Source of the DNA: Nocardia spumae
GTDB taxonomy: Bacteria > Actinomycetota > Actinomycetes > Mycobacteriales > Mycobacteriaceae
Direction: 5' to 3'
Length of the DNA stretch: 64,000 bases
Assembly: GCF_020733635.1 (NCBI RefSeq)
Contig: NZ_JAJFZL010000001.1
Span: 992,001 to 1,056,000, forward strand
How positions within the stretch are numbered: position 1 is the first letter of the stretch; every line of letters begins with the position of its first letter. A model generated the notes under the pieces. It did no database searches, was not told where the DNA came from, and saw only the letters and a program-made list of their open reading frames with translations. Position numbers and translations under genes: made by a program. Below, piece after piece: positions 13,026 through 64,000 of this stretch.

Positions 13026-13029
13026 ATGC
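13015..13029. promoter_or_regulatory. Palindrome spanning the mftF-like start codon
   Basis: GCATTCC-T-GGAATGC is a perfect 7-bp inverted repeat around one base, and includes the ATG at 13026. It could be an operator or a small RNA hairpin limiting initiation. If translation instead starts at ATG 12990 it lies inside the coding region. Confidence 0.4.
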
Positions 13030-16224: not shown

Positions 16225-16379
16225 GACACAATCTATTTCGATTCTCGCACCCACGCTGTCGCGTGTGGTGTATTCGCCGAACCATCCGGGGCCACGCCGC
16301 CGCACGCGCATTCGCGCAGTGTCCGGGGCTTATTTCGTGCTGCTCGAAAAGCGTTCGGTCGCTGGGTATTTCGTCAATC

Positions 16380-16386
16380 GAGGAGG
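16380..16386 (+). promoter_or_regulatory. Ribosome-binding site fixing the NRPS1 start
   Basis: GAGGAGG is the only strong Shine-Dalgarno sequence near the beginning of the open frame. It points to tandem GTG codons at 16392 (5-base spacer) and 16395 (8-base spacer), and argues against the in-frame upstream start at 16263. Confidence 0.7.
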
Positions 16387-16391
16387 CTCTG

Positions 16392-19300
16392 GTGGTGGGT
16401 TCGGAGTTGAGCGGTTCCGGTCCGGATGAACGACACACCGAAACCCCGGGGGGTTCGTCGCCGTTCCCGCTGACACCCGCGCAGCTCGGTGTCTGGTACG
16501 CGCAGCTGCTCGATCCGCAGACCCCGATCAATATCGCCCAGTACGTCGACGTGCACGGCGACCTCGATATCGCGGTTCTGCAGCAGGTCTCCGTCGACGC
16601 CGCCCGGGAATTCGGATCCACGGTCGTGCGACTCGGCGAACAGGACGGTGAGCCGTATCAGGTCGTCGATCCGCGGCTGCCGGTCGACATCGTCTCGATC
16701 GACCTGCGCGAGGCCGGCGACCCGGTCGCCGCAGCGCACGAGTGGATGCGCGCCGACTACACCGCACCGGTGGACCTGCTGACCGACCGCCTCTTCGCCG
16801 GGGCCGTCCTGCGGGTCGGCGACCGGCGCTGGTTCTGGTATCTGCGGGCCCATCACATCGTGCTCGACGGATTCGGCGCGCTCACCAACACCATGCGAGT
16901 CGCCGAGCGCTACACCGCCGCACTGCGCGGACTCGACCCCGAGCCGGCGAAGGCGGGCAGCCTCGAATCGCTGGTCGAGGGGGAACTCGGCTATCGCGAC
17001 AGCACCCGGTTCGAATCCGACCGGCAGCACTGGGCCGAACGGGTCCGGGATCTGGACGGCACTACCACTCTCAACGGCCGCAGCGCGCCCCGTGCCGCGG
17101 GCAATCTAGTCTACGGCCGCCGACTCCCGGATCGGGTCGTCACCTTGATGAACGACCTCGCCACCGCACACGACTCGTCGGCGGCGGTGGTCCTGCTGGC
17201 GGCCTTCGCGGCCTATCTGGGCCGGCTGACCGGTCGCGACGAGGCCGTGCTGAGCCTGCCGGTCACCGCCCGGACCACCGCGGTCATGCGGCGTTCGGCG
17301 GGGATGCTGTCCAATATCGTGCCGCTGCGGCTGCAGACCGGCGACGCCACCTGGGCGGAGCTGTTGCAGCAGGCCCGGGTCGAGGTCGCCGGGGCGCTGC
17401 GTCATCAGCGTTATCGGCACGAGGACATCCGGCGCGACGCCGGGATGGAAGGTCTGGCCACCCGGCGCGCGCTGTTCGGGCCGCTGGCCAACATCATGCT
17501 GTTCCGCAGCGATCTGACCCTGGGCGACACCGTCGGGCGATACCACGTGCTCTCGACCGGGCCGGTCGAGGATATGAGCCTCAATATCTACTACGGCGAC
17601 AGCGACCGGGTCCACGTCGACTTCGAGGCGAACCCGAACCTCTACGGCACCGACGACATCGCCCGCCATCACGCACGCTTCGTCCGGTTCCTGGAACGGC
17701 TGGTCACGCTGGACCCCGACCGTCCGTTGTCCGCGGTGGCGGTGACCACCGATCTGGAACACGAGGTGAGCCTGCGGATCTGGAACGCCACCGAGGCCGA
17801 TATCGACGAACTGGCCGGTCCGGACGCGACCCTGGTCTCGCTGTTCGAGCGGCAGGTCGCGCGCACGCCCGAGGCGGTGGCCCTGCGCGGCCCGGCTATC
17901 CGCAGCTACGGCGGGTTCGCCGCCGATGTGCATCGGCTCGCCCGGCATCTGATCGCGCGGGGCGCCGGTCCGGAAACCGCGGTGGCACTGCATATTCGAC
18001 GTTCGCCGGAACTGGTGGTCGCGATGTACGCGGTGCTCGCGACGGGAGCGGCCTATGTGCCGCTGGACCCCGACCATCCCGCCGAGCGCATCGGCTACGT
18101 CCTCGACACGGCACGACCGGTCTGCGTGCTGACCACGACTCGCGATCACGGCGCCGGGCCCGATGACTGGATCGATATCGATGAGCTGGAGTTGTCGGCG
18201 CTGCCGTCGGATCCGGTCACCGATGCCGAGCGAATCGCGCCGCTGCGCCCGGCCCATCCGGCCTATGTCATCTTCACCTCGGGATCGACCGGGCGGCCGA
18301 AGGGGGTGGCGGTCTCGCACGCCGCCATCGTCAACCGGCTGGTGTGGATGCAGAGTGCCTACCGGCTTGCCGTCGACGATGTGGTGTTGCAGAAGACACC
18401 GGCGACCTTCGACGTCTCGGTATGGGAGTTCTTCTGGCCGTTGCAGATCGGCGCGAGCCTGGTGCTCGCGGCGCCGGACGCGCACCGCGATCCGGCCCGG
18501 CTGCGCGCGGTGATCGCCGAATACGGCGTCACCACCGTGCATTTCGTTCCGTCCATGCTCGCCGCCCACCTCGCCGGGGCGGGCGCCGATACCGAACCGT
18601 CGTCGCTACGACGGGTTTTCACCTCCGGCGAGGAGTTGCCGGGGCCGCTGGCGCAGCGCATGCTGACCGCCGCTCCCCGGGCGGAGTTGCACAATCTGTA
18701 CGGTCCCACCGAGGCCGCGGTCGATGTCACCGCGCATCGGGTGGGACCGCTCGATACCACCGGGGTGCCGATCGGCGCACCGGTATTCAACACCCGGCTG
18801 TACGTGCTCGACGCACGATTGCGGCCGGTGCCCGTCGGCGTTCCGGGTGAGCTGTATCTGTCGGGGGTTCAGCTCGCCCGGGGCTACGTCGGGAGGCCGG
18901 AGCTGACCGCCGAACGGTTCGTCGCCGATCCGTTCGCGGGCAGTGCCTCCGAGGCCGGTCCCGGTGCGCGGATGTACCGCACCGGTGATCTGGTCCGCTG
19001 GACGGCCGACGGTGAGCTGGAATATCTGGGGCGCACCGACTTCCAGGTGAAACTGCGCGGACTGCGGATCGAACTCGGCGAGATCGAGACGGTGCTGGGC
19101 CTGGTGGCCGGTGTCGCCCGCGCCGTGGTCGTGGTCCGCGACGATGCCGGCACCGGCGCGCAACTGGTGGCCTACCTGGTCGAAACCACTTCCGGTGCGG
19201 TCGATGTCGCGCGGGTGCGCAGTGCGGCCGCCCGCGAACTGCCGGGATATATGGTGCCGGCGGCCTACGTGCTGCTGGAGTCGTTGCCGGTCAACGCCTC

Positions 19301-19631
19301 CGGCAAACTCGACCGCGCCGCGTTGCCCGCGCCCGAACGCAGCGCCGGGACCTATCGCGATCCGGCATCGGTGTCCGAACGGGCGGTCGCCGCCGTCTTC
19401 GCCGAGGTGCTCGGCCGCGAACTGGTCGGGCTCGACGACGACTTCTTCGCGCTGGGCGGCAATTCGCTGATCGCGACCCAGGTGGCCGCACGGCTCAACG
19501 CCGACCTCGGCTGCGGGCTGGGAGTGCGGGAGCTGTTCGAGGCCACCACGGTCGAAGGTCTGGCCGAACTGATCGACCGCGCCTTCGAGACCGACGATAT
19601 GTCCGAGGGTGTGGGACCGATCGCCGGTCCG
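16392..19631 (+). other. NRPS1 module 1: C(starter)-A(Ser)-T
   Basis: C1 begins [14 protein letters not shown] and has HHIVLDG; it differs from all the other C domains here (which begin PLSxAQxRMW) and resembles the EntF/DhbF-type first C domain. The A1 code is DVWHFSLVDK, the EntF serine code. The T1 serine codon is at 19464. A serine module loading an acyl or aryl group from another protein is the simplest reading. Confidence 0.85.
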
Positions 19632-22600
19632 CGCCCACCGCTGCTGCCGCTGTCACCGGCGCAGCAGCGCATCTGGTTCCTGAATCGCTTGGCCGGCGAC
19701 AGCGCCGACTACAACATGCCGTTCGTGGTCCGGATGCGGGGGGCGGTCGACACCGCGGCTCTGCGCGGCGCCCTCGCCGATGTCGTGGCCCGCCACGAGG
19801 TGCTGCGGACGGTGTTCCCGGCCGACGCCGATGCCATGGCATGCCAGCGCATCCTGCCCGCGGCACAGGTCGGACCGGAGACCTTCGCGGTGGAACCCGT
19901 TGCCGCCGAACAGCTCGACGACGAGCTGGCGCGTTTCGCGACCACGGGATTCGACCTCGCCCGTGAGATTCCGCTGCGGGCGGTGATATTCGACATCAGC
20001 GACTCCGCCGACGACTACGCTCTGGCCGTCGTTCTGCACCACATCGCCGCGGACGGCATGTCGCTGCCGGTGCTGGCGCGCGATGTCGCCGCCGCCTACT
20101 CCGCCCGCCGGTCGGGTGTCGATACCATCGCGCCGGCGCCGGCGGTCCAGTATGCCGATTACGCGCTGTGGCAGCGGGATCGGCTCGGTGATCCCGCCGA
20201 TCCCGAGTCCGCCTCGGCGCGGCAGCTCGCCTACTGGGCGGAGACGCTGGACGGGATACCCGACCAGCTCGACCTGCCCGCGGATCGCCCGCGTCCCGCG
20301 ATCGCCGGTGGCCGGGGCGCGGTGCACCGGTTCGAGCTCGACCCCGAGCTGCATCACGCGGTCACCGAACTCGCCCGTGCCCAGGGTGTTTCGACCTTCA
20401 TGGTGTTGCACGCCGCACTGGCCGCGCTGCTGGCGCGGGTATCGGGCGGCGACGACATCGCCATCGGCACCCCGGTGGCCGGGCGTGGCCATCGCGAACT
20501 CGATGATCTGATAGGCATGTTCGTCAACACGCTGGTGCTGCGGACACGCGTCGCGCCCGACATGCCGTTCACCGATCTGCTGCGCCAGGTGCGGACCGCC
20601 GATCTGGGCGCCTTCGCCCATGCGGATCTGCCCTTCGAGCAGCTGGTCGAGGCCCTGAACCCGGTGCGGTCGCGGGCTCGCCATCCGCTGTTCCAAGTGA
20701 TGCTGGGGGTGGCCGACACTCAGCACGTCGCGGTCGAGTTACCCGGATTGTCCGTGCGGACGAGTACATTGGACACGGGAGTGACCAAGTTCGACCTTCA
20801 ACTCTCGGTCACCGAAAGCTTCGCCGGTGCCGGTCCCGGGGAAGGTCCGGCACCGGCGGGGATCGCGGCGGAGTTCACCTACGCCACAGATCTTTTCGAC
20901 CGGGACACCGTCGTGGGCTACGCCCGCTGGTGGCGGCAGTTGCTCACCGGCGCGGTGGCCGATCCCGCTCGTCCCGTGGGTGAGTTGTCCCTGCTCGACG
21001 AGGTAGAGACGCGGCGCGCGATCGAATCCGGATTCCGTGGTGCCGCGGCGCCGGCCGACGAGGTCCTGAATCTGTTCGAGCGGCAGGTGCGCGCACATCC
21101 CGCCGCCGTGGCCGTGATCGACGGTGACCGGCAGCTCACCTACGCGGAGCTCGCCGCGCGGATCAATCGCCTGGCCCGGCATCTGGTGCGGGCGGGGGTG
21201 GGGCCGGAAGTCCCAGTGGTACTGGGGATGCGCCGGTCCGCGGATCTCGTGATCGCGGCCTATGCGGTACTCGCCGCGGGCGGTGCCTATGTGCCGATCG
21301 ATCCGGACCAGCCGCCGGCCCGGCTGCGGCAGCTGACCGACACCGCCCGGCCGATCTGCATGCTGACCGACGGCGCCGCACCGGAACTGGATCTCGAGCG
21401 GATCGCCATCGATGCGCCCGAGATCGCCGAGTACTCCGGCGCCCCGCTGACCGATGCCGACCGGATCGCCCCGGTGCGGGCGGAGAACACCGCGTATCTC
21501 ATCTTCACCTCGGGGTCCACCGGACTGCCGAAAGGCGTTGCGGTGCAGCGCGGTTCGATGGACAACCAAATCGCCTGGATCACCGCCGAGTACGGGATCG
21601 ACGAGCGGGATGTAGTGCTGTTCAAGACCCCCGCCACCTTCGACGTCTCGGTGTGGGAGCTGTTCGCACCGTTGTGCGCGGGCGCCCGGTTGGTGGTCGC
21701 CGAACCCGACGGTCATCGCGACGCCGCCTATCTCGCCGCTACCATCGCCCGGCACGGGGTGACCGCCACCTCCTTCGTCCCGTCCCAGCTGGCCACCTTC
21801 GCCACCGCGGTGGACCCGGCCGATATCCGGTCGCTGCGTTGTGTTTTCGTCGCGGGCGAAGCACTCAACGGCGCGGTCGTTCGGGCCTTCGCCGCGGTGA
21901 GCGCGGCCGCGGTCCACAACCTGTACGGCCCGACCGAATTCACCGTGCACGCGACGCACGCGCCGGTCGGGGCGGACCGGCAGGGACCCGCACCCATCGG
22001 TAAACCGGTGCGCGACAGCCATGTCCTGGTGCTCGATCGGCACCTGCGACCGGTGCCCGATCTCGTCGTGGGCGAGCTGTATCTGTCCGGTAGCCAGGTG
22101 GCCCGCGGTTACCAGGGGCGCTCCGCGGCCACCGCCGAGCGCTTCGTCGCCGATCCCTTCGGGCCGTTCGGGGCGCGGATGTACCGGACCGGCGATCTGG
22201 TGCGCCGCATGCGGTCCGGGGACCTGGAATATCTGGGCCGCAGCGATTTCCAGGTGAAATTGCGTGGTCAGCGCATCGAGCTCGGTGAGATCGAGGCGGC
22301 GCTGCTGGCGACGCCGGGGGTCGACGCCGCGGCGGTGCGGGTGTACCACCATCGGACCGGCGACCTGCTGGTGGCCTATGTGGTGTGCGACGGTGAGCCG
22401 CGGGCCCTGGTGGAGGAGCGGCTGCGGGAGTGGCTGCCGTCCTACATGGTGCCGGGGGCCTATGTGGCGCTGGCCGCCCTGCCGCTGACCGCCTCCGGCA
22501 AACTCGACCGCGCCGCCCTGCCCGATCCGGTGCTGGCGGCCAAGACTTTCCGCGCACCGGCCACCGCCGAGGAATCCGCCGTGGCGGAGGTCTTCGGCCG

Positions 22601-25600
22601 GATTCTCGGGGTGGAGCGGATCGGGCTCGACGACGACTTCTTCGCCCTCGGCGGCAATTCACTGGTCGCGACGCAGGTGGCGGCTCGGCTGGCCGATGCG
22701 CTGAACCGCGAGGTCGCCGTGCGCGAGCTGTTCGAACATCCGGATGTCGCGAGTCTGGCCCGGCGGCTCCGTGATTCGGCGCCGCGCCGCCGCCGCGCCC
22801 TGACCGCCGGGCCGCGCCCGGAGATCCTGCCGCTGTCCTACGCCCAGCAGCGGATGTGGTTCCGTAACGAGTTCGACTCCGCATCGGCGGTCGACAATCT
22901 CACCACCGCGCTGCGGCTGCAGGGTGAACTCGACTGCCCGGCACTCGCGGCCGCCGTCCACGATGTGCTGGCCCGGCACGAGGCCCTGCGCACCCGCTAT
23001 CCGGCCGCCGACGGCGTGCCGCGGCAGGAGATCCTGAACCCCGACCAGGTGGGGATCGACCTCACGCCGCAGGTGGTGACCGAGGCAGATGTGCCGCGGC
23101 TGCTGCGCGATCTGGCCGCCGAATCCTTCGTGGTGCGAGAGCGGGCGCCGATCCGGATGACCGTGTTGCGCTGCGCCTCCGATCTGCACATCCTGGTCGT
23201 GTCGATCCACCACATCGCCGCCGACGGTTGGTCGATCGCACCGCTGACGCGGGATCTGATGAGCGCCTACGCCGCCCGGACCGCCGGTGCCGCACCGCAG
23301 TGGCTGCCGCTGCCCGTGCAGTACGCGGATTACGCGCTGTGGCAGCGGGCAGTCCTCGGTGCGGAGGACGATCCGGATTCGCCGATCGCCGAGCAGATCC
23401 GGTTCTGGCAGCACGAATTGGCCGGACTGCCGGATGTGCTGGCGCTGCCCGGCGATCGCCCCCGGCCCGCGGTGGCGACGGGACGCGGTGCCCGGTACTC
23501 GTTCGCACTGCCGGCCGAGACGGTCACCGCGCTGCGGGCACAGGCGGAACGGTCCGAGGGCACCTTCTTCATGGCGTTGCACGCGGCCTTCGCGGTGCTG
23601 CTGGCCAAACTGTCCGGTCAGCGCGATATCGCGATCGGCACCCCGGTCGCCGGACGTGGTGAGGCCGCCCTCGACGATCTGGTCGGCATGTTCGTCAACA
23701 CACTGGTGCTGCGCACGGACGTGGCGCCGGAACTGTCGTTCGCGGGACTGCTCGCCGCGGTCCGTGACGGCGACCTGCGTGCCTTCGCCCATCGCGATGT
23801 CCCGTTCGAGCGACTGGTCGAGGTCCTCAACCCGTTGCGCTCGGCGGCCCGGCATCCGCTGTTCCAGGTGATGCTGGATCTGCGCGGTCCCGCGGCCGGT
23901 GAGCCGCGGCTGTCCGGACTGCGGGCCTCGACGATCGAACTGGATTCCGGCACCGCGAAATTCGATCTGCACCTCACCGTCGAGGAGCGGGCCGACGGTG
24001 GAGCGGCGGCCTGCTTCGAGTACGCGACGGACCTGTTCGACGAGCCGGCGATCGCGGCCTACGCCCGTCGGCTGGCCGCGTTGCTCGACACCGTCGCCGC
24101 CCGGCCCGATCAGCCGATCGGGGCCATCGAGCTGCTGTCGGACGAGGAGCGGGCCCAGGCCCTGGTGGTCCGCAACGACACCGCCCACCCGGTCCCGGAG
24201 ACGACCCTGGCCGACCTGTTCGCCGGACAGGCACAGCGCGGTCCCGATGCCGTGGCCCTGCGCTACGAGCAGGCCGAATGGACCTATGCGCAGTTGTCGG
24301 CCCGGGTGAATCGGCTGGCGCGACTGCTGATTTCGATCGGCGTCGGGCCGGGCCGCACGGTGGCCGTCGGTATGCGGCGTTGCGATGAGCTGGTGGTCGC
24401 CCTGTATGCCGTGATCGCCACCGGAGCGGCCTATGTGCCGCTCGATCCGGATCATCCGGTCGACCGGACTCGAGCGGTGCTCGACACCGTCCGGCCGGTC
24501 TGCGTCCTGACCCGCTCCACCGACGGACTCGATATCGATCCGGAGGGTTCGGCGGGACCGGAGGCCGTGCTCGATCTGGATCTCATCGATACCGGCGACT
24601 ACTCGCCCGCTCCGCTGGTCGATGCGGAGCGGTTGTGTCCGTTGCGGTCCGAGCATGTGGCGTATGTGATTTTCACGTCGGGTTCGACGGGTCGTCCGAA
24701 GGGTGTGGCGGTGAGTCACGGGGCGATTGTGAATCGTTTGGTGTGGATGCAGTCGGAGTACTGCTTGGGTGTCGATGATGTGGTGTTGCAGAAGACTCCG
24801 GTGACTTTCGATGTGTCGGTGTGGGAGTTGTTCTGGCCGTTGCAGGTGGGTGCGCGGTTGGTGGTGGCGCGTCCGGACGGCCACCGCGATCCGGCCTACC
24901 TGGCCGAACTGATCCGCGCGGAGCGGGTGTCGGTGCTGCACTTCGTGCCGTCGATGCTGGCGTTGTTCCTGGACTACGCGCGGCCCGGCACCCTGCGGCT
25001 GGTGTTCGCCTCCGGTGAGGCGCTGCCGGTGGACACGGCCCGGCGACTGCGGACCGCGACGGGAGCCCGCCTGCACAATCTGTACGGCCCCACCGAGGCA
25101 GCGGTCGATGTGACCAGCCACGAGGTGACCGACGCCGATACCGTGACCGTGCCGATCGGCCGCCCGGTGTTCAATACCCGGGTCTATGTGCTCGACGCCT
25201 GGCTGCGACCGGTGCCCGCCGGTGTCGCCGGTGAGTTGTACCTGGCCGGAAGGCAACTGGCCCAGGGATACCTCGCTCGCCCCGGCATCACCGCCGAACG
25301 GTTCGTGGCCGATCCGTTCGGCTCCGGCGAACGGCTCTACCGCACCGGCGATCTCGTGTGCTGGACCGCTCACGGTGAACTCGACTATCTGGGCCGCACC
25401 GACTTCCAGGTCAAGATGCGCGGGTTGCGCATCGAACTCGGGGAGATCGAGGCCGCGCTGACCGCGCAGCCGGATATCGCCCAGGCGGTGGTGGTCGTGC
25501 GCAACGATCCGCACACCGGTGATCGACTGGTCGCCTATCCGATCGCGGCCGAGGACGCCGACCTCGACCTGGACAATGTGAAAGCCGCGCTGGCACAGCG

Positions 25601-28600
25601 ACTACCGGCGTACATGTTGCCCGCGGCCTACGTCGTGCTGGACGCGCTCCCGCTCAATGCCTCCGGCAAGCTCGATCGCGCCGGTCTGCCCGATCCGGTC
25701 TGGCGGGCCCGCGAATACCGGGCTCCGGCCACCTCCACCGAGGCGCTGGTCGCGGCTGTCTTCGCCGATCTGCTCGGCGCCGAGCGGGTGGGCCGTGACG
25801 ACGACTTCTTCGATCTCGGCGGCAATTCGCTGCTGGCCACGCGAGTACTCGCGCGGATCAGCGCCGCGCTCGACACCCAGCTGCCGGTGCGGCTGCTGTT
25901 CGAGGCGTCCACGGTGGCCGAACTCGCGGCACAGGCGCAGCGGCGCGCGGGATCCGGTGCCCGGGCGCCGCTCACCGCCCGCCCGCATCCGGAGCGGGTG
26001 CCGCTGTCGGCGGCACAGCGGCGGATCTGGTTCCTCAACCGGTACCGGGCGCAGGAGCGGACCGCGGCGTCGGTCGACCTGATCCCGCTGGCCCTGCGTT
26101 TGCGCGGCGAACTGCGGATCGACGCACTGCGCGCCGCGCTCGCCGATGTGATCGCACGGCACGAAACCCTGCGCACCCGGTATCCCGACACCGCCGACGG
26201 CCCGATCCAGATCGTCGAACCCGCGGCCGGTCATCTTCCGGCATTGTCGCCGGAGCCGGTGGACGAGCAGTTGCTCGACGACCGGGTCGCCGCGCTCTGC
26301 GCCGCCGAATTCGACCTCACCGCCGAAACCGGTTTGCGCACCGCACTGTTCGAGCTGGCGCCCGATCATCATGTGCTGCTGCTGGTACTGCATCACATCT
26401 GCGCCGACGGATTCTCCCTCGGCCCGCTGGCCGGCGATCTCATGACCGCGTACGCCGCCCGCCTGGACGGCGTCGAACCCGAATGGCAGCCGTTGCCGGC
26501 CCAGTACCGGGACTACACGCTGTGGCAGGCCGAGGTGTTCGGCGATCCCGCCGATCCCGAATCGGAGCTGCATCGGCAGCGCGAGTTCTGGCGGGCGCAC
26601 CTGGCCGGACTGCCCGACCAGCTCGCGCTGCCCGCCGATCGGCCGCGGCCCGCGACACCGTCGCACCGGGGCGCCGAGCACCGCATCCAGATCGACTCCG
26701 ATCTGCACAGCGAGCTGGCCGAACTGGCCCGCAAACACGAGACGACGCTGTTCAGCACCGTCCACGCCGCGCTCGCCGTACTGCTCGCGCGGATGTCGGG
26801 CACCGCCGATATCGCGATCGGGACACCGGTCGCCGGACGCGGCGAACCCGCACTCGACCCGATGGTCGGCATGTTCGTCAACACCCTCGTGCTGCGCACC
26901 GAGATCGACAGCCGCGACCATTTCGACGCTGTACTCGATACCGTTCGGGCTCAGGATATTTCGGCGCTGTCGCAGGCCGATGTGCCGTTCGAGCAGATCG
27001 TGGAGATGCTGGCCCCGGCCCGCTCCGGGAATCGGCATCCGCTGTTCCAAGTGGCGCTGACCTTCCAGAACTTCGCACTGCCGGCGATCGAACTGCCGGG
27101 ATTGCAGGTCACCGGCGCCACGGTCGACGCCGCGGCCGCCGAATTCGATCTCCAGTTCACCGTCGTCGAAGCCGTCGACGGCGACGGCCACCTCGGCGGT
27201 ATGACGGTCGACATCACCTACGCCACCGATCTGTTCGACCCGGCCACCATCGCCGATCTGGCCCGCCGCTTCGAACAGGTGCTGGCCGCGGTGAGCCACG
27301 ATCACACCGTCGTCGTGGGCGATATCCAGCTGCTCAGTGCCGAGGAACAGCATCGCGCCCTGCACGAATGGTCGGCGACCGGCGTCGATCACGCCGAAAT
27401 CACCACGATCGCCGAGCGTTTCGAGGCCGTGGTCCGCGCCGATCGGGCGGCGATCGCGGTGCGCGCGGGTGAGACGACCGTCAGCTACGGCGAGCTGTCC
27501 GATCGCGCCAACCGGCTCGCGCGCCGGTTGATCGCCGCCGGTGCGGGACCGGAAAGCCTGGTGGCCGTGGCGCTGCCGCGCACCGCGGATCTGATCGTGG
27601 CCCTGCTCGCGGTCGTCCGCAGCGGCGCCGGATATCTGCCCGTCGACCCGGGGTATCCCGCCGACCGCATCGAATACGTGGTCGCGGACTCGCGGCCGAT
27701 CTGCGCGGTGACCGGTTCGGGCGGCCCGGCGCGCGGCTGGTTCGGCGGGCCGGTGATCGACCTCGACTGCCTGGACTGGGAGGACCTGGACCCGGCGCCG
27801 ATCACCGATGCCGACCGCCGGGCGCCGCTGCGCCCCGACCACACCGCCTACGTCATCTACACCTCCGGCTCCACCGGACGGCCCAAGGGCGTGCAGATTC
27901 CGCACGCGAATGTGCTGTCCCTGCTGGACAATACGCGTGACCTGTTCGGCTTCGACGCCTCCGACGTGTGGACACTGTTCCACAGCTACGCCTTCGATTT
28001 CTCGGTGTGGGAGCTGTGGGGCGCGCTGCTGCACGGCGGCCGCCTGGTCGTGGTCGACTACTTCACCTCCCGCTCGCCGCAGCAGTTCCGGGAGCTGTTG
28101 ATCGCGGAGGGCGTGACCGTCCTCAACCAGACGCCGTCGGCGTTCTACCAGCTGGTCAGCGCCGAGTTGGCGCAACCGCCGGCCGATCATCGGCTGCGAT
28201 ACGTGATCTTCGGTGGTGAGGCGCTCGAGCCGGCGCGGCTGCGGGACTGGTTCTCTCGCTATCCGGACGCGCCGCGACTGGTCAATATGTACGGCATCAC
28301 CGAGACGACGGTGCACGTCTCGTTCCGCCCGATCGACGCGCGCACCGGCGCGGCCAGTGTCATCGGCGGTGCGCTACCGGGGTTGACCGTACGGTTGCTG
28401 GATTCGCGGCTGCGGCCGGTGCCGGTGGGGGTGCCGGGCGAAATCTATGTCTCCGGCAGGCAACTCGCGCGCGGCTACCTGAGGCGGCCCGGACTGACCG
28501 CCGGGCGGTTCGTCGCCGATCCCTACGGTGCCGCCGGATCGCTGGCCTACCGCTCGGGCGATCTCGCCCGCTGGACCGCGGCCGGTGAACTCGAATATCT

Positions 28601-34064: not shown

Positions 34065-41623
<7,559 letters not shown>

Positions 41624-45600: not shown

Positions 45601-45795
45601 ATCGGCGCGGACGACGACTTCTTCGCCGCGGGCGGTAACTCGCTGTCGGCCATGCGAGTGGTGGCGCGGGTCAACGCCGCCCTCGGCTGTGACCTGAACG
45701 TCGCCGAGATCTTCGGTGCGCCCACCCCCGCATTGCTGGCCCGGATCGCCGACGCCGCGCCGGGCACGACCGTCGCGCCGCTGGTCGCGGGCCCG
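42613..45795 (+). other. NRPS2 module 9: C-A(Ser)-T
   Basis: C9 has HHIAADG. The C-A linker and A-domain start are shortened (RTLPELSAGRPRRP). The A9 code is DVWHFSLVDK. T9 has FFAAGGNSL, with Ala instead of Leu before the GG. It contains the left copy of the 549-bp repeat. Confidence 0.87.
44239..44787 (+). repeat. 549-bp direct repeat, copy in module 9
   Basis: By eye identical to 47407-47955, at a constant offset of 3,168 bp. It runs from AYVPLDPEHPVERV through the A3-A5 motifs to FVPSMLAVYLSA. Both borders are sharp. It contains the 267-bp tract also found in module 3. Confidence 0.9.
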
Positions 45796-48700: not shown

Positions 48701-48975
48701 TCCCGCTGACCTATCGTGCCCCCACCACGCGCGCCGAGCAGGCCGTCGCCGCGGCCTACACCGAACTGCTCGGGCTCGACCGCGCCGGGCTCGACGACGA
48801 CTTCTTCGCTCTCGGCGGCAACTCGCTGACCGCCACCCGGGTCGCGGCCCGGCTGGGTACCGAATTCGACGCCGACCTGCCCGTGCGCCTGATCTTCGAC
48901 GCTCCGACCGTCGCCGGATTCGCCGCGCGCATAGCGGAATTCGCCGGTCGTGGCACCGGCGTGCCACTGGTCGCG
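45796..48975 (+). other. NRPS2 module 10: C-A(Ser)-T
   Basis: C10 has HHIAADG. The A10 code is DVWHFSLVDK (Ser). It contains the right copy of the 549-bp repeat, 3,168 bp (exactly 1,056 codons) after the copy in module 9. T10 has LGGNSL. Confidence 0.87.
47407..47955 (+). repeat. 549-bp direct repeat, copy in module 10
   Basis: The second copy of the 549-bp tract. Synonymous sites are also identical, so the copies were homogenised recently. The flanking sequences of modules 9 and 10 differ at many synonymous positions. Confidence 0.9.
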
Positions 48976-51900: not shown

Positions 51901-52197
51901 GCGGTATTCGGCGGTGGTGACTTCCGCGCACCGGCCACCGCGGACGAACGACTGGTCGCCGAGGTCTTCGCGCAGGTTCTCGGCATCGAGCGGGCCGGCG
52001 CCGACGACGACTTCTTCGCACTGGGCGGTAATTCGCTCGTCGCGACCCGGGTACTGGCGAGGCTGGGGGAGCGGCACGGCCGCCGGATCCCGGTGCGCAC
52101 CCTGTTCGAACATCCGACCGTCGCGGGCCTCGCGGTGGCGATGAACGGCGCGGGCGACGGTGCGGGCACCGAACTGGCCGGACCGGTCGCCGGTGAG
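48976..52197 (+). other. NRPS2 module 11: C-A(unassigned, Asp278)-T
   Basis: C11 has HHIAADG. The A11 code reads DVWDFILVSK, one residue from module 7, with the same FDVSLWGYFLPL region; both probably load the same residue. T11 has LGGNSL. Confidence 0.8.
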
Positions 52198-55100
52198 CGG
52201 CCGGACACCGTGGCGCTGGCACCGGTCCAGCAGGGTATGTGGTTCCTGAATCGGCTCGATCCGGATTCGGCCGCCGACAATATCGCGGTCGCGGTCCGCA
52301 TCCTCGGCGATCTGGACGCCGCGACCATGCGCGGCGCCTTCGCCGATGTGGTCGCCCGGCACGAGGTGTTGCGGACCCACTATCCGCTCGATGCCGAGGG
52401 TTCGCCCTCACAGGTGGTGCTGACCCCGGAGCGGGCGGGCGTCGAATTCGCGGAGCTGACCGATTCGGCCTCGATCGCCGAATTCGCCGGGCGCGGATTC
52501 GACGTGACGGTCGCACCCCCGGTGCGGGCGCTGCTGATCCGCGAATCCGAGACCAGCCACGTCTTCGTCGTGGTCGTGCACCACATCAGCGCCGACGGAT
52601 ACTCGCTGAATCCGCTGGTGCGCGATCTGATCGCCGCCTATCTGGCCCGTCGCGCCGGTACCGCGCCGGACTGGCCGGACCTGAGCGTGCAGTACGCGGA
52701 TTACGCACTGTGGCAGCGCGAATCACTGGACGCGGTGGAAACCGAGCAGCTGGACTTCTGGACCCGCACTCTGGCGGAGCTGCCCACCGAACTCGCCCTG
52801 CCGACCGATCGTCCGCGCCCGCCGCTGGCATCACGCCAGGGGGCGGTGGAGCGCGGCCGGATCGACGGTGCCGTGGCCGCGGCCGTCCAGCGCATCGCCA
52901 CGGCGCACGGCGCGACCCCGTTCATGGTGTGGCACGCCGCGCTGACAGTCCTGCTGGGCCGGCTGTCCGGCGCGGACGATATCGCGGTCGGCACCCCGGT
53001 CGCGGGGCGCGGGGCCAGTGCGCTCGACGATCTGGTGGGTATGTTCGTCAACACGCTGACCCTGCGTACCCGGCCGCACCCCGAGCAGAGCTTCAGCGCG
53101 CTGCTCGATCACACCCGTGAAGTGGATCTCGCCGCCCTCGCCCATGCGGCCCTGCCGTTCGACCGGGTCGTCGACGCCCTCGGCGTGACTCGCACCGCGG
53201 CCCGGAATCCGCTGTTCACGGTCTCGCTGAGCTATCTGAACCTCGGCGCCCGGACCCACGCGGTGCCGGGGTTGATCCTCGAACCGGTCGAATTCGACCG
53301 CCCGGTGGCCAAATTCGATCTGCAGTTCACGGTGTCGGACGTACTCGATGCCGACGGCCACCTGCCGCTGGAACTCACCTATGCCACCGATCTGTTCGAT
53401 CCCGCCACCGCCGCCGGGCTCCTGCGCCGGCTGGGCCGGGTGATCGGTGCCGTCGTCGCCGAACCGCAGCGGCCGATCGGTGAGATCGAACTGCTGTCAC
53501 CGGCCGAACGCACAGCCCTGCTCGGCATCCGCCCGCGTCTCCGCACCGAGCCGGGCACCCTGGCGACATTCCTCACCGAGACGGTCCGGCACAACCCCAC
53601 CGGGATCGCACTGTCGGACGGCGGCCACGAGCTGACCTATGCCGAACTGGATGCCGAATCCACTCGGCTGGCCCGGGTTCTGATCGAATCCGGTGTCGGC
53701 GCCGAGGATTTCGTGGCCATCGCGATCACCCGCTCCCTCCGGTGGATCGTCGCGTGGTGGGCGGTGGCGAAGTCCGGCGCCGCCTTCCTCCCGGTCGATC
53801 CGGACTATCCGGCGGACCGGATCGCGCATATGCTCGCCGATTCCGGTGCGGCCGTGGGTATCACCACCGTCGACGACTCCGATGCCCTGCCCGCGACGGC
53901 GCGGCGGCTGGTGCTCGACGATCCGGAAACGGCCGCGCGGCTGCGTGCCGTGTCCGCCGATCCGATCGCGGAACACGAACTGGTGCGCCCGGTGCGTCCG
54001 GAGCATCCGGTGTGGATGATCTACACCTCCGGCACCACCGGCACGCCGAAGGGCGTGGTCGTGAGCCACGCCGGCGTCGGTGCGATCGTCGCCGCGCATC
54101 GTCGGCACTACCGCGTCGATCCGGACGCCCGGGTGCTGCACGCCTCCTCACCGAGCTTCGACGCCTCGATGCTGGAACTGCTGATGGCCTTCGCGGGTGC
54201 GGCCACCGCGGTGATCGCGCCGGTCGGCGTGTACGGCGGCGCGGAACTGACCGAACTGCTACGCGCCCAGCGTATTTCACATGCCTTCATCACCCCGTCG
54301 GTGCTGCGGACTCTCGATCCGGCGGTGCTGCCGCGGCTGCGGCGGCTCACGGTCGGCGGCGAGTCCTACGCCTCCGACCTCGTGGAGCGCTGGGCCGGCG
54401 ATCGCGAATTCCACAACACCTACGGGCCCACCGAAACCACCGTCTTCGCGACCGTGAGCGCGGTGAAACGGCCCGGCGACCCGCTCGATATGGGCGCCCC
54501 GATCGACGGTATGTCGGCGGTGGTGCTGGACGAGCGGTTGCGTCCCGTGCCGGTCGGGGTCACCGGTGAGCTGTATCTGCGCGGGCCCGGTCTGGCGCGC
54601 GGCTATCACGCCCGCCCGGCCTTGACGGCGCACCGGTTCGTCGCCGATCCGTACGGTCCAGCCGGACAACGGCTCTACCGCACCGGCGATCTGGTGCGCT
54701 GGCTGCGGCGCGACGACGAGTACGTCATCGAGTACGTGGGTCGTTCCGACCATCAGGTGAAGGTGCGCGGCCTGCGCATCGAACTGGGGGAGATCGACGC
54801 GGTGCTCGGTGCGCACGAATCGGTCGGCTTCGCCGCCACCATCGGCCATCGTGACGCCTCGGGGGAGACCGCGCTGGTCTCGTATGTGGTTGCCGCGCCG
54901 GGACATACCGTCGATGTCGAGGCCCTGGTGGATCATGCCGCCCGGAGCCTGACCGCCTACATGATCCCCGCCGCGGTCATGGTGATCGACCACATTCCGC
55001 TCACGCCGACCGGCAAGCTGGACCGCAAGGCCCTGCCCGAACCGGTATTCCGGATCGCCGAGTTCCGGGCGCCGCGCACGGCCGTCGAGGCCACCGTCGC

Positions 55101-55335
55101 CGAGATCGTCGCGGGTGTGCTCGGCCTCGCCGAATCCCGTCGGGTGGGAGTGGACGACGACTTCTTCGCCCTCGGCGGAAACTCGCTCACCGCAACCCGA
55201 TTGGCGGCCCGGCTGGGTGCGGCCTTCGACCGCGCGGTGCCGGTGCGGACGATCTTCGAACATCCGACCGTCGCGGCCCTGGCCGCCGCGATCGCGGCGG
55301 CCGACGGTGCGCCGGCACGGCCGGCCCTGACCCCG
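52198..55335 (+). other. NRPS2 module 12: C-A(unassigned)-T
   Basis: C12 has HHISADG and starts with the slightly divergent ALAPVQQGMWFLN. A12 belongs to the group lacking Trp239 (FDASMLELL, AFITPSVL); the code reads DALFLVTVFK. The A3 motif is TSGTTGTPKG rather than [11 protein letters not shown]12 has LGGNSL. Confidence 0.78.
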
Positions 55336-58300
55336 CGGTCGATGGACGGTCCGGCTCCGCTGTCGCCGGCCCAGCAGCGCATGTGGTTGCTGAACCGGAT
55401 GGACGAGCAGTCCGCCGCCTACACCATCCCGCTGGCCATGCGCCTGAGCGGCGATCTCGACAGCGCCGCGCTGTCGGCGGCCGTCGCCGATGTGGTCGCC
55501 CGGCACGAGGTGCTGCGCACCGTGTATCCGCAGACGGATGCCGGTCCGGTGCAGGTCGTGCTGCCGGTGGCCGACGCTCCGGTGCCACGGCTGGATCCGG
55601 TGCCGCTGCCGGGGCACGCGGTGGTCGCGGCGGTGTCGGAATTCGTCACCACCGCCTTCGATGTGACCACCGCGGTGCCGCTGCGGGCCCGGCTGTTCGC
55701 CCTCACCGACACACCCGGCACCGAACATGTGCTGGTCGTGGCCGTGCATCACATCGCCGCCGACGGATCCTCGCTGGTCCCGCTGGCCCGTGACGTGATG
55801 ACCGCCTACGCCGCCCGGCGAGCCGGTTCGGCACCCGGCTGGGCGCCGCTGCCGGTCCAGTACGCCGATTTCGCGCTGTGGCAACGCGAGGTGCTCGGCG
55901 CGGAGGACGATCCCGCATCGACCGCCGCACGCCAGCTCGGGTATTGGACCGAGACCTTGGCCCAGCTGCCCGATCAGCTGGCGCTGCCCACCGATCGACC
56001 CCGCCCCGCCACGGTCTCCACCGCCGGTGACAGCGTCGATTTCACTGTGGACGCGGCGCTGCACGCCCGGCTGGTCGAGATCGGTCGCGGCCGGGGCGCG
56101 ACCCTGTTCATGGTGGTGCACGCCGCCTACGCGGCCCTGCTGGCGCGGCTGTCGGCCACCACCGATATCGCGGTCGGCACCCCGATCGCGGGCCGCGGTG
56201 ACAAGGCGCTCGACGATCTGGTCGGCATGTTCGTCAACACCCTGGTGCTGCGCACCCGGGTCGACCCGGCCACCGGATTCGCCGACCTGCTCACGGCCGT
56301 GCGCGATGGCGACCTGGCCGCCTTCTCCCATGCCGACATCCCGTTCGAACGACTGGTGGAGGTACTCAATCCGGTCCGGTCGACCGCACGGCATCCGCTG
56401 TTCCAGGTCGGTTTCTCCTTCCACAACCAGGCGGCCGCGGAATTCGCCCTGGACGGACTGACCGTCGGCGCGGCGGATTTCGACACCGCGGTCTCCCAGT
56501 TCGATCTGCATCTGGTCGTGACCGATCGCTACGACGAATCCGGTGCTCCCCTCGGCATGGCCGCCTCGATCACCTACGCGACCGCGTTGTTCGACGCCGC
56601 CACCGTCGACGGCTTCGCCGCCCGGCTGGTCCGGCTGCTGGAGGCGGTGTGCGCGGATCCGTCCACCGCGATCGGCGCGATCGATCTGCTCGCGCCGCAC
56701 GAGCGCGTCCGGATGCTGGAGACCTGGAACGACACCGGCGACGCGACCATCGCCGCGACCACCCTGCCCGAACTGTGGAACACCACGGTGCGTGTGCGCG
56801 GTGCGGCGCCGGCACTGATCATCGATGGCGACGGCAGCACGCGAGTGACCTACGCCGAGCTCGCGGCCGAGGTGAATCGGCTCGCGCGACACTTGATTTC
56901 GCTGGGCGTGGGCCCGGAGACGCGGGTCGCGCTGGCACTGCGCCGGTCCCGGGAACTGATCGTCGCCATGTACGCGGTGAGCGTCGCCGGTGGCGCGTAT
57001 GTGCCCGTGGATCCGGATCAGCCGGCCGAACGCGTCGACTACATCCTGCGCACGGCCGAACCGCTGTGCGTGCTGACCGCCGGATCGGCCGCGGAGTCGG
57101 TGCGTGGCACGGGATTCCCGATCGTCGATCTCGGCGCCGTGGACCCGGCCGGGCTGTCCGCCGAGCCGGTCGACGATCGAGACCGCCGCGCGCCGTTGCG
57201 TCCGCAGCATCCCGCGTACGTCATCTTCACCTCCGGATCCACCGGACGCCCGAAGGGTGTCACCGTCGGCCACGGCGCGGTGACCAACCAATTGCTGTGG
57301 AAGAAAGCGGAATTCGGCCTCGGCGCGGATGATGCGGTGCTGCTGAAGACCGCCGCCACCTTCGATCTCTCGGTGTGGGAGTTCTGGTCCGCCGCCGTCG
57401 CCGGAGGACGGCTGGTCGTCGCCGGGCCGGACGCGCATCGCGATCCGGTCCAGCTGCACCAGCTGATGGCGCGTGAACACGTGACCACCCTGCACGCGGT
57501 GCCGTCGATGCTGGACGCCCTGCTCACCGTGGCGGACGGTCGCCTGCCCGAATCGTTGCGGCGGGTCCTCGCCATCGGTGAGGCGCTGCCCGCGGCGACG
57601 GCGCAGCGGATGCGGCGCGGCAGTACCGCCGCCCTGTACAACCTCTACGGTCCGACCGAGGCCGCGGTCTCGATCACGGCGCATGCGGTCGGCGATGCCG
57701 ACACCGCGGTCGTGCCGATCGGCCGCCCCGAGGCGAACAGCGCGGTGTACGTGCTGGATTCACGATTGCAGCCGGTGCCGGTGGGTGTACCGGGTGAGCT
57801 GTATCTGGCCGGTGCGCAGCTGGCGCGCGGTTATCACGGCCGGTCCGAGCTGACCGCCGAGCGGTTCGTGGCCGATCCGTTCGCGCCCGGGACGCGCATG
57901 TACCGCACCGGCGATGTGGTGTGCTGGACCGCCGCCGGCGAACTCGAGTATCGGGGCCGCACCGACTTCCAGGTGAAGGTCCGGGGCTTCCGGATCGAAC
58001 TCGGTGAGATCGAGGCGGCGCTGCGTGCCCTGCCCGCCCTCGCCCAGGTCGCGGTGCTCGCGGTCGCGGATCCGCGCACCGCCGATCGGCTGGTCGCCTA
58101 CCTCGTCCCCGCCGCTGCCGAGGTCGACGTCGCCGAGGTGAGAACCGCGCTGGCGCGGACACTTCCGTCGTACATGGTTCCGGAGGCGTTCGTCGTGCTC
58201 GACGCGTTGCCGCTGACCGTGAACGGCAAACTCGACCGCGCCGCCCTGCCGCGCCCGGAATTCGCGGCCGCCGCCTACCGTGCTCCGGCCACCCCGGCGG

Positions 58301-58545
58301 AACAGGCGATCGCGCGGATCTACGCCGAGGTGCTGGATGCGCCGCGGGTCGGCGCCGATGACGACTTCTTCGCCCTCGGTGGCAATTCGCTGCTCGCCAC
58401 CCAGGTCGCCGCCCGGCTCGGCGCCGCATCGGACACCCGGATTCCGGTGCGGCTGCTGTTCGAGGCGTCGACCGTCGCCGCGCTGGCGGTGCGCCTGAAC
58501 AGCCACATCGGCGCCGGCGACCGGGTCGCCCTCACCGCGGGCGTC
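55336..58545 (+). other. NRPS2 module 13: C-A(unassigned)-T
   Basis: C13 has HHIAADG. The A13 code reads DLWHLILVSK, one residue from module 5, with the same FDLSVWEFW region. T13 has LGGNSL. Confidence 0.8.
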
Positions 58546-61500
58546 CGGCCCGAGGCGCTGCCGCTGTCGCTGGCACAGCAGCGCATGTGGTTCCTCAACC
58601 AGTTCGAACCGGAATCGGCCGCGTACAACATCCCGGCCGCCGTGCGGCTGTACGGCGATTTGCGGGTGAGCGCACTGCGCGAGGCGATGGTCGACGTCCT
58701 CGGGCGCCATGAGGTCCTGCGCACCGTCTATCCGCAGACCACCGACGGCGTCGTGCAGCGGATCGTGCCGGTTTCGCAGGTGGCGGTGGATCTCCCGCCA
58801 CAACCGATCGACGCCGGCGAGGTGCCCGCGCGGATCGCGGAACTCGCCGCCGCGGGCTTCGACGTCACCACCGAGGCGCCGATCCGCACTGCCCTGCTGC
58901 GCATTTCGGAGACCGATCACGTCCTCGTGTTCGTGGTGCATCACATCGCCGCCGACGGCTGGTCGATGCGCCCGCTCACCCGCGATGTGATGCTGGCCTA
59001 CGCCGCCCGCAGTGCCGGTGCCGCCCCGCGGTGGTCCCCGCTGCCGGTGCAGTACGCCGACTACGCGCTGTGGCAGCGACAGGTGCTGGGCTCCGAAGAC
59101 GATGAGCAGAGCCTGATCTCGACGCAGGCCCGGTACTGGCGGGACCGCCTGGCCGGCCTGCCGGACGAGGTGAATCTGCCCGCCGACCGCCCGCGTCCGG
59201 CCGTGCAATCGGCTCGGGGCGGACGCGTGGTGTTCCCGCTCTCGCGGCAGCTGCGCACCGAGCTCACCGCACTGGGCCGCGACCACAACGCCACCCTGTT
59301 CATGGTGGTGCACGCCGCCTGGGCACTGTTCGTGGCGCGCATGTCGGGCACCGACGACATCGCCGTCGGCACCCCGGTGGCCGGACGCGGCGAGGCCGAA
59401 CTCGACGACGTCGTAGGCATGTTCGTGAACACCCTCGTGTTGCGCACCCGGGTCGACGGCCGGGCCGGCTTCACCGAATTGCTCGCCGCCGCACGCGAAA
59501 CCGATCTACAGGCCTTCGGCCACGCCGACCTGCCGTTCGAACGTCTGGTGGAACTGGTGAATCCGGAGCGGTCCACCGCGCGCCACCCGCTGTTCCAGGT
59601 GATGCTGACCTTCCAGAACCTGCCGCAACGCGGATTCGAACTGCCCGGATTGCGGGCGGAGGCGGTCGATTTCGATTTCGACGCCGAACAGTTCGATCTC
59701 TCGCTGACCGTGCAGGAAACCGAGGAAGGTCTGCTCGCGGATCTGTCGTACGCGCGTGATCTGTTCGACCACGCCACCGTCGAGACCTTCGCCCGTCGCT
59801 TCATCGGCCTGCTGGAGGCCGTCGTGGCCACACCCGAGCTGGCCGTCGGCGCGCTGCCGCTGCTGTCGGACGTGGAGTACGAGCGGTTCACCACGATGGA
59901 CGGCGGGCCGGTGATCGACGACGGCCTGCTGCCCGAGATCTTCGCCCGCGGCCTGCGTTTCGGCGCCGATCGGGTCGCGGTCCGCATCGCCGACCGCGAG
60001 GTGACCTACGGGGAGCTGGATCGGCAATCGTCTCGGCTGGCCCGGGTGCTCATCGACGCCGGTGTCGGCCCGGAGCGGTCGGTCGCGATCGCGCTGCCGC
60101 GCTCCTACGAGATGATCGCCGCGGTATGGGCGGTGGCGAAGGCCGGTGGCGCCTACGTCCCGGTCGATCCGAGTTATCCGCCCGACCGGGTCCGGCACAT
60201 GGTGACCGACTCCGGTGCGGTGATCGGCGTCACCACCACGGAATTCGCCGCGACGCTGCCGGCCGACACCGAATGGCTGGCCCTCGACGCACCCGCCGTC
60301 GCGCGAGCGTGCGCCGAGCGGCCGGCCGATCCGGTGACCGACGCGGAACGCCTGCGCCCGCTGCGTCCCGGCCATGCCGCCTACACCATCTACACCTCGG
60401 GCTCGACCGGACTGCCCAAGGGCGTCACGGTGACCCATCGGCGGGTGGCCAACCTGGCCACGCACGCTACCCGGCTGTGCCGGGTGGAACCGCGACACCG
60501 CTTCCTGCACGTCTGCTCGCCGAGCTTCGATCAATCGCTCGAGGAGTGGCTGATCACCTTCGGCAGCGGCGCCACCCTGGTGATCGCGCCGCCGTCGGTG
60601 CTCGGCGGCCAGGAGCTCGCGGATCTGCTGCGCGCCGAACGCGTCACCCACACCATGATCACTCCGGCCATGCTGGCGACCGTGGATCCGGCCGGGCTGC
60701 CGGATCTGGAGGTCGTGGGCGCCGGCGGCGACGCGACGACACCGGAGCTGCTGGCCAAATGGCAGCCCGGCCGCCGCTTCGTGAACAGCTACGGTCCGAC
60801 CGAGGCCACCATCTCCTCCGCCTATGCGATTCTGGTCGCGGGGGTGCCGATCACCATCGGCACCCCGGTGCCCGGATCCACCACACTGGTGCTGGATGCC
60901 CGGATGCAGCCCGTCGCACCGGGTGTCGCGGGCGAGCTGTACGTGGTGGGCGAGGCCCTGGCCCGCGGCTACCACGGCCGGCCCGGCCTGAGCGCCGAAC
61001 GGTTCGTCGCGTGCCCGTGGGGCACGCCCGGCACCCGGATGTATCGCACCGGCGATCTGGTCCGCTGGATCGTCGGCGGTACCGGCGACTGGGAGCTGGA
61101 ATATCTGGGCCGCACCGATTTCCAGGTCAAGGTCCGCGGCTTCCGCATCGAACTCGGGGAGATCGACTCGGTGCTCACCGGTCACGACGAGATCGACTTC
61201 GCGGTGACGCTGGGCCGGGAGACCCCCGCGGGCGCCACCGCCCTGGTGTCGTATGTCCGTGGGGTACCGGGCTCCTCGGTCGATCCGCGGGAACTGACCG
61301 TGTATGCCGCGCGGAGTCTGCCGTCGCATATGGTGCCCGCCGCGATCGTCGTTCTGGACGAGGTGCCGCTGACTCCGGTCGGCAAACTGGATCGGAAGGC
61401 GTTGCCGGAACCGCGATTCCAGGCGCGGCCCTACACCGAACCGGCCACCCCGCAGCAGCGCCTGGTCGCCACGGTGCTCGCCGAGGCGCTCGGGGCGCCG

Positions 61501-61698
61501 CGTGTCGGCGCCGACGACGACTTCTTCGAACTGGGCGGTAACTCGCTGATCGCGACCCAGGTGGTGGCACGGCTGGGTGCCCAGCTGGGGACCCGGATAC
61601 CGGTACGCGTCGTCTTCGACGCGCCGACGGTCCGGGCGCTCGCCGACACCCTCGCCGACCACACCGGCGGCGGCCGCCCGGAACTGATCACCCGAGCA
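58546..61698 (+). other. NRPS2 module 14: C-A(unassigned)-T
   Basis: C14 has HHIAADG. A14 is a third member of the group lacking Trp239 (FDQSLEEW, TMITPAML); the code reads DQEMVASISK. It supplies the intact reference for the frameshifted stretch in module 8. T14 has LGGNSL. Confidence 0.78.
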
Positions 61699-64000
61699 CG
61701 GCCGCGACGGCTTCCACTGTCGTTCGCGCAGCAGCGGATGTGGTTGCTGAACCGGATGGATCCGGAATCGGCGGCCTACAACGTGCCGTTCGTGGTCCGG
61801 CTGGACGGCGCGGTGGATGCCGCCGCGTTGCGGCGGGCGTTGTCGGATGTGATCGATCGGCACGAGGTGCTGCGCACGATCTATCCGGAATCCGAGCAGG
61901 GGCCGGTCCAGCGGATCCTGCCGACGGCCGAACCGGAGTTCGACATCCGTGCGGTCACCGAGGCGCGGGTGGAATCGACGGTCGCGCGGATACTTTCGCG
62001 TCCGTTCGATGTGACCGGGGAGATTCCGGTGCGCGCGGCCCTGTTGCGGGTGAGCGACGCGGCCGAACCCGCGCACATCGTCGTGCTCTCGATGCATCAC
62101 ATCTGCGCCGACGGTGCCTCCACGGCTCCGCTGACCCGCGATCTGCTGGTGGCCTACGCCGCCCGCACCGCCGGCACGGTGCCGCGGTGGGCGCCGCTGC
62201 CGGTGCAGTACGCCGATTACACGCTGTGGCAGCGGGAGCTGCTCGGCGCCGAGGACGATCCGCGGTCGCTGGTATCCGGCCAGCTGGGGCACTGGCGCAC
62301 CGCACTGGCCGGGATGCCCGAACAGTTGGAGCTGCCGACGGACCGGCCGCGGCCGATGGTGCGGTCGCATCGCGGGCGGGCCGTCGCGTTCGAGATCTCC
62401 GCGCGGCGGCACGAGCGGCTGCACCGGCTGGCCCGGGACCGGCACGCCTCACTGTTCATGGTCGTCCGGGCCGCGCTGTCGATCCTGCTGGCGCGCCTGT
62501 CCGGAACCGACGATGTCGCGGTCGGCGCCCCGATCGCGGGCCGCGGCGAGGCCGAGCTCGACGATCTGATCGGCATGTTCGTCAACACCCTGGTACTGCG
62601 CGCCCGAGTCGCACCGCGGGACTCCTTCGCCGATCTGCTCGATCAGGTGCGTGCGGGAGATCTGGCGGCCTACGCCAACAGCGACGTGCCGTTCGAGCGG
62701 CTGGTCGAACTGCTCGATCCGATCCGCTCGACCGCCCGGCATCCGCTGTTCCAGGTGGGCCTGTCGTTCCAGAACCTGGCCCGCACGCCGGTCCGCCTGC
62801 CCGGCGTCGCGGCCACCGAACTCGAAGTCGATACCCGGACTACGCAGTTCGACCTGCACTGGTATCTCACCGACACCTACGACGAGGCGGGTGCGCCCGC
62901 CGGCATCTCCGCCGCCGTCACCTACGCCACGGATCTGTTCGACTCGACCTCGGTGCAGCGCTTCATCGAGCGATTCCTGCGGATCGTGGACGCGGTGTGC
63001 GCCGACGATACGACGGCGATCGGGGATATCGACGTCCTGGACGCGGACGAACGACACCGCCTGCTGAGCGAGTACAACGCCACCGCGCGGGAACTGGCGC
63101 TGCCCTCCGGCGACGGTGACCATCCGCACACCCTCACCGCGCTGTTCGCGGCCGCCGTGGCCGCCCACCCCGAGGCGGTGGCCCTCGCCGAGGATCGCAG
63201 CGGCGCAGCGATGGCGGCGTCCACGCTGACCTACGCCGACTTCGACGCCCGGACCAACCGATTGGCGCGCTACCTCATCGCGCGCGGTATCGGACCCGAC
63301 CAGCGGGTAGCGGTGGCCCTGCCGCGCTCGGCCGATCTGCTGATCGCGATCTACGCGGTGATCAAGGCCGGCGCCGCCTATGTGCCGATCGACCCGGAGC
63401 AGCCGCGCGAGCGCATCCGCCACATTCTCGATACCGCCCAACCGGAATGCGTACTGGCGCACGCGGAATCGCTGGTGGACGATCGTGCGATCGCGATCGA
63501 TCGACTCGATCCGACGGAGTTCCGCGACGATCCGGTGACCGACGCGGATCGGCGAATTCCGTTGCGGCCGGACCATATCGCGTACGTGATCTTCACCTCC
63601 GGATCCACCGGACGTCCGAAGGGGGTGGCGGTCGCGCACCGCGCCATCGTCAACCGCCTGGCGTGGATGCAGGCCGAGTACGGACTCACCGCCGGCGACG
63701 TGGTCCTGCAGAAGACGCCTGTGACCTTCGACGTCTCGGTGTGGGAGTTGTTCTGGCCCTTGCAGGTCGGCGCGCGCCTGGTATTGGCCGCACCGCAGGG
63801 CCATCGCGATCCGCACTATCTGGCCCGGGTGGTGGCGGCCGAGTCGGTGACCACTCTGCATTTCGTGCCCGCCATGCTCGCCGCATTCCTCGCGGAGGCC
63901 GATATGCGCGACTGTGTCTCGTTGCGCCGGGTCTTCGCCTCCGGTGAGGCATTGCCGTCCACGGTGGCCCAGCAGGTGCGGGCGCGCACCGGCGCCCGGC
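61699..64000 (+). other. NRPS2 module 15: C-A(probably Ser), truncated by window end
   Basis: C15 has HHICADG. A15 is cut after ARTGAR, just before the NLYGPTE motif; the visible code positions are D, V, W, H, F, S as in the serine domains. Confidence 0.75.

Follow-up and report, generated by a model that had tools for sequence, protein, structure and literature searches.

The NRPS line described here is encoded by two genes whose boundary cuts a module in half. The window, that is the whole stretch of 64,000 nucleotides analysed here (G000:C1:992001-1056000), comes from a Nocardia genome of 7.07 Mb in 5 contigs. Open frames, Pfam scans and motif patterns revealed an NRPS of 15 modules across two genes, the features of which are collected in Table 1. 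With its repeating C, A and T domains, its intact motifs and a TE that closes gene 2 outside the window as release domain, this is a type I modular NRPS. The two genes are coupled by an overlap of stop and start codons, in agreement with the original prediction made on this DNA. Their junction splits module 6 between C and A, so that protein 1 must hold protein 2.

Table 1. Features of the NRPS locus, in window positions
Feature	Positions	Strand	Remarks
Open frame	16263-34064	+	5933 aa
Open frame	32336-41623	+	First frame of gene 2
Open frame	41161 to window-equivalent 65679	+	Second frame of gene 2, past the window edge
NRPS gene 1	16263..34064	+	Modules 1-5 (Ser, ?, Ser, Thr, ?) and C domain of module 6
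First C domain, starter-like	16464..17765	+	Pfam; C-domain tree
C domain of module 6, last catalytic domain in protein 1	32397..33743	+	Pfam
dC, A-domain-derived C-terminal domain of protein 1, proposed docking half	33747..34061	+	
TGATG, gene 1 stop overlapping gene 2 start	34062..34066	+	
dN and linker, A-domain-derived N-terminal domain of protein 2, proposed docking half	34064..34477	+	
NRPS gene 2	34064..64000 in window, end at window-equivalent 65679	+	A6-T6, modules 7-15, TE
Frame change inside module 8 A domain, gene 2	41486..41518	+	
TE (PF00975, E 1.9e-29)	Contig 1056942-1057601, window-equivalent 64942-65601		0.9 kb past the window

Pfam detected 15 condensation domains in the locus. 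The P-loop motif was present in 15/15 modules and the carrier motif with its serine in 15/15 as well (13 were caught by one pattern, modules 4 and 7 by another), while HHxxxDG was kept in all 15 C domains, meaning that none of them is of the cyclisation type. The C and T motifs are thus intact, as had been announced. E, TE, Cy and MT domains had been described as missing, which is true of the window: Pfam scans of the window frames in five pieces gave only AMP-binding, AMP-binding_C, condensation and PP-binding domains, with neither a TE nor a methyltransferase, and a consensus E motif was not seen in the locus. The missing TE was however an effect of the window edge, as the suggested look at the sequence to the right of the window found it there. 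Since this TE follows the last module, the "at least 15" modules of the original prediction become exactly 15. The start that had been placed at 16392 is plausible, the frame of gene 1 being open from 16263 and its true start possibly lying later. Upstream of the NRPS are MftF, MftR2 and a ferredoxin-reductase-like protein, the mycofactocin genes MftR2 and MftF standing directly upstream of the NRPS site at 12029-14423, and among the scanned neighbours of the locus no evident tailoring gene was seen. The upstream glycosyltransferase and reductase were common to 6/6 other genomes compared, and the regulator to 5/6 of them.

The one frameshift that had been noticed corresponds to a clear change of frame in gene 2, within the A domain of module 8. 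In G037, a Nocardia locus whose dN domain (see below) is 83% identical, gene 2 is open with ten codes in the same order, so that the break is either confined to this strain or an error in the sequence. That this strain has a mere pseudogene here, with no product, is quite possible, if somewhat short of an even chance, given this break in a gene that is open in G037; the catalytic motifs are nevertheless intact on both sides of it, as they would be if the break is recent or the sequencing was faulty. With G037 as reference, the earlier description of the line as functional apart from one frameshift was a reasonable one.

The codes of the A domains were read by motif alignment, except for those of modules 2 and 8, which were obtained with another pattern, module 8 being taken from the open orthologue G037. 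The alignment reproduced the predicted module order. Modules 1, 3, 6, 9, 10 and 15, the six expected to be specific for serine, carry DVWHFSLVD, a Ser-like code with 7/9 identities to what we take to be Ser codes; the scoring list of reference codes includes this very string, which makes its 9/9 rows for DVWHFSLVD circular. The single threonine was placed at module 4, whose DFWNIGMVH is presumably the Thr code. The other modules read DVWSFALVH (module 2), DLWFLILVS (5), DVWDFVLVS (7), DPLISGGII (8, from G037), DVWDFILVS (11), DALFTGTVF (12), DLWHLILVS (13) and, for module 14, DQEMGGSIS by motif alignment or DQEMEVSIS by a second pattern. For seven other codes the best matches reached 4-6/9, scored or by eye, and gave no confident residue; the module 8 counterpart in a second giant NRPS that this genome encodes had a best match of 4/9.

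This other giant NRPS (G000:C1:1079316-1129799) lies 21 kb past the locus. Its single frame encodes 16,827 aa, has 14 P-loop motifs as well as two E-type domains, and closes with a C domain and a truncated, A-like stretch that lacks the P-loop; a TE motif was not found, and an ABC-transporter gene follows the frame. In a tree restricted to the C domains of this genome, the first C domain of our locus grouped with that of the 16,827-aa enzyme, and the remaining 14 were separate from those C domains of this enzyme that follow E domains. These groupings suggest an N-acylated, all-L peptide, which would be released by the TE.

Our preferred reading, which we consider probable and by no means certain, is that of a 15-module line on two proteins, making an N-acylated, all-L, Ser-rich peptide, in which binding between dC and dN bridges the cut that separates C from A. 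Ser-1 would be acylated by the starter-like first C domain. Protein 1 has modules 1-5 together with C domain number six, and protein 2 has A6-T6, modules 7-15 and the TE. The homologous dC and dN would bind each other and so replace the missing covalent C-A link, and protein 2, once held, could bring the carrier of module 6 to its own C domain. Finally, the terminal TE would release a Ser-rich peptide of 15 residues. Of all this, the domain anatomy, the kinship of dC and dN, their terminal location, their conservation and their return in further genera are observed, and the binding, the acylation, the stereochemistry and the product are inferred.

The homologous domain pair at the gene junction, like the spread of the locus through the genus, goes beyond the original prediction. 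dC and dN, of about 100 residues each, are 42% identical over 72 residues, and their profiles matched with 99.5% probability in a comparison of these two profiles only. In likewise two-profile comparisons, A-domain N-termini matched dN at 96.2% and dC at 94.7% probability. Positions 12-60 of the 109 of the family profile match A-domain N-termini (LgrA, E 3.8e-8), and Pfam gave weak PF00501 matches in 11/47 family members; for the window pieces holding dC and dN, Pfam at E up to 1 returned only chance-level, unrelated hits. Judged from these matches, dC and dN go back to the N-terminal part of an A domain. They are the only strong copies in this genome (E 1e-81 and 2e-9, the next being at 1e-3). 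AlphaFold2 was run twice, on the dC-stop-dN read-throughs of G083 and G173, and folded both halves (mean pLDDT 76.1 and 82.7, respectively), with the predicted order helix-strand-strand-helix-helix-helix in both runs. Neither run gave a confident dC-dN arrangement (pTM 0.51 and 0.49), and the predicted fold had no structure match among the matches listed.

A search with dN gave matches in 61/148 relatives, every one of which belongs to the same genus as the window. That this genus is Nocardia follows from three named relatives of the dN region, which are Nocardia kruczakiae, N. nova and N. vermiculata. The 57/61 genomes that were fetched (G005, G007, G026 and G062 were left out) yielded 57 dN and 56 dC, no dC being seen beside the dN of G084. 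In 56/56 cases, 6-59 residues separate the end of dC from the stop. Where the locus is linked and has both halves (48 loci), the core of dN starts 26-89 bases past the last codon of dC, and the junction reads TGATG in 45/48, TAGCT in two and TGACC in one. The distances of dC and dN correlate at 0.59, which, taken without a control domain, is no more than expected of neighbours. Motifs and codes were read in seven linked loci, that of the window included. In all seven, gene 1 shows six C motifs (the code pattern caught four or five), which we read as five modules plus a C domain. Gene 2 carries 8 codes in G020, G044 and G053, 9 in G073, 10 in G037 and in the window locus (there over two frames and with module 8) and 12 in G011. 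Together, the counts for the two genes give 13-17 modules.

In eight genomes (G016, G032, G038, G046, G058, G061, G065 and G076), the halves are on different contigs or far apart, and both persist in all eight. The dN match of these unlinked loci starts at residue 16-98 of an open frame. In G038, the halves are 1.8 Mb apart on one contig of 7.3 Mb: gene 1 is at the same site as in the window genome, and the distant gene, whose neighbours differ from those of gene 1, has dN-A at its start and a TE at its end. After gene 1 of G038 comes a frame of some 1030 residues with neither dN nor P-loop, the start of which is also found in G016, G061 and G076. The A domains of this G038 frame lack the P-loop yet contain no stop, and the frame may be decaying or reused. 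The other four unlinked genomes show a weak second match after gene 1 (14.7-21.5 bits). Mean identity between unlinked and linked copies is 34.5% for dN and 53.8% for dC; as the unlinked dN have diverged, the genes that carry them may not be true partners, and the partnership is a putative one.

Beyond Nocardia, a profile built from 47 members matched 195/401 genomes of the family in 18/31 genera at E 1e-8, an upper bound because weak matches include ordinary A-domain N-termini. In a sample of the class, 4/296 genomes matched at E 1e-12, all of them Mycobacteriaceae. We searched again 24 genomes chosen for genus spread and scanned 18 loci: 12 dC are 1-10 residues away from a stop and 12 dN have an A domain after them (some dN positions are counted from the last stop, the start codon not being fixed), one copy is internal, and two copies are in small frames. 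Pairs of dC and dN thus recur in other genera of Mycobacteriaceae. The halves are 11 kb apart in G174, and G188 has a single dC but two genes with dN, identical to each other at 100/104 residues, possibly a line that branches from one to two. Frames of 144 and 259 residues in G159 and G279 bear the domain near their end, with no NRPS domains or C motif seen, and could be stand-alone adaptors.

Single chains carry the domain too. In 10/11 single-chain loci examined, one copy stands between C and A of one protein, a setting that calls for no docking, and the eleventh (G164) is an ordinary A domain; G335, a single-chain NRPS of 11,280 aa, has it at modules 3 and 5, and the A domain that follows its first copy has an odd core. 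These single copies tie the domain to the C-A boundary; where this boundary is cut, its likely role is docking. They could also mean that the domain serves certain C-A boundaries, inside one protein or from one to another, as a structural adaptor or spacer and that joining proteins is not its main job, which we regard as rather unlikely, since split junctions have two copies, one per terminus. Moreover, a fusion could have left the single-chain copy behind as a scar; in 8/11 rows its C-part is closer to dN, and in 5 of these 8 its N-part is closer to dC, no more than a suggestive pattern.

Alternatively, dC and dN could have no function and be what an A-domain duplication left behind at the point where an ancestral gene was split. 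Their common origin in the N-terminal piece of an A domain agrees with this, and so does a constraint that is moderate, with a median dN/dS near 0.46 (0.46 for dC and 0.47 for dN; pN was lower than pS in 99.6% and 98.9% of pairs, respectively). Remnants nevertheless appear improbable to us, because both termini keep the domain in 48/48 fetched linked Nocardia loci with both halves, and at junctions in other genera, and because the second half (alpha-3 and alpha-4) is common to dC and dN and unmatched in sequence by A-domain N-termini. We give equally little credence to a contact through the dC tail on the model of the beta-hairpin class, in which a folded N-terminal domain is bound by a short C-terminal motif. 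SEG stands within the last 8 residues of dC in 42/56 cases, a possible tail motif, and the predicted order of elements resembles the alpha-beta-beta-alpha-alpha of beta-hairpin docking domains, as given in the available text of PMC9113145. However, the TubC_N profile matched dN with a probability of 0.2% and dC with 0.03%, and this genome has no TubC_N match, so that membership of the beta-hairpin (TubC_N) family was itself rejected.

Returning to docking as the role of dC and dN, we propose, tentatively and at just under an even chance, a docking class of its own found across Mycobacteriaceae, whose two homologous halves would each have been made from the N-terminal part of an A domain, would join C to A and would allow both the 1.8 Mb separation of G038 and one-to-two feeding in G188. 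The likeness of the predicted element order to a known docking class lowers the odds that the class is a separate one. Docking domains are the means by which NRPS engineers join subunits, and the C-A boundary is a site that they already cut. If our proposal is true, a natural pair of domains of about 100 residues for this boundary would be useful to engineering and easily testable. dC and dN would also help to pair far-apart orphan NRPS genes in Nocardia and its relatives; halves of one line could be encoded as far apart as in G038, and one upstream synthetase could feed two downstream ones, as in G188.

Some known systems resemble the locus. GCF 6 of Mannle et al. 2020 is described, in the available part of that paper (PMC7413640), as a conserved NRPS of 7-13 modules, always with a nitropropane dioxygenase, and like our locus it is large, variable in size and widespread in Nocardia; that the locus is GCF 6, already noted by these authors, is very improbable, since the nitropropane dioxygenase, the only one of the five GCF 6 neighbours in the available part on which our comparison relies, is absent among the neighbours of this locus and lies near other NRPS genes, at 6304941 beside frames 6284057-6300707. 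These NRPS frames and the dioxygenase (G000:C1:6284057-6305909) are the probable GCF 6 site of this genome. Putative lipopeptide lines with a starter C domain and a TE are reported from Rhodococcus in the available text of PMC5550956; they share with our locus the rows of C-A-T, the starter-like first C domain and the terminal TE, whereas here 15 modules are shared out between two proteins and the cut falls between C and A. With the N-terminal subdomain of A domains, dC and dN share the helix-strand-strand-helix start (profile positions 12-60 of 109), but they are of about 100 residues, lack the P-loop and the catalytic core, and have a second half of their own.

The dC-dN pair is not described in the available text of PMC9113145, PMC7413640, PMC12153302, PMC10212144 or PMC5550956. 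The NRPS docking classes given in that of PMC9113145 are COM, PAX and beta-hairpin, which sit at E/C, PCP/C or PCP/Cy junctions and have unlike halves, none being at a C|A cut or made of homologous halves; for the beta-hairpin class, one upstream partner serving two downstream ones is reported there. A COM domain was rejected, the junction being C|A and not E/C, with no E domain, and a PAX domain as well, the junction not being PCP/C and the predicted fold having a pair of strands and not a helix bundle. dC and dN thus share with the three classes their proposed place, at the termini of subunits, but differ from them in joining C to A, in having homologous halves and in being derived from an A domain.
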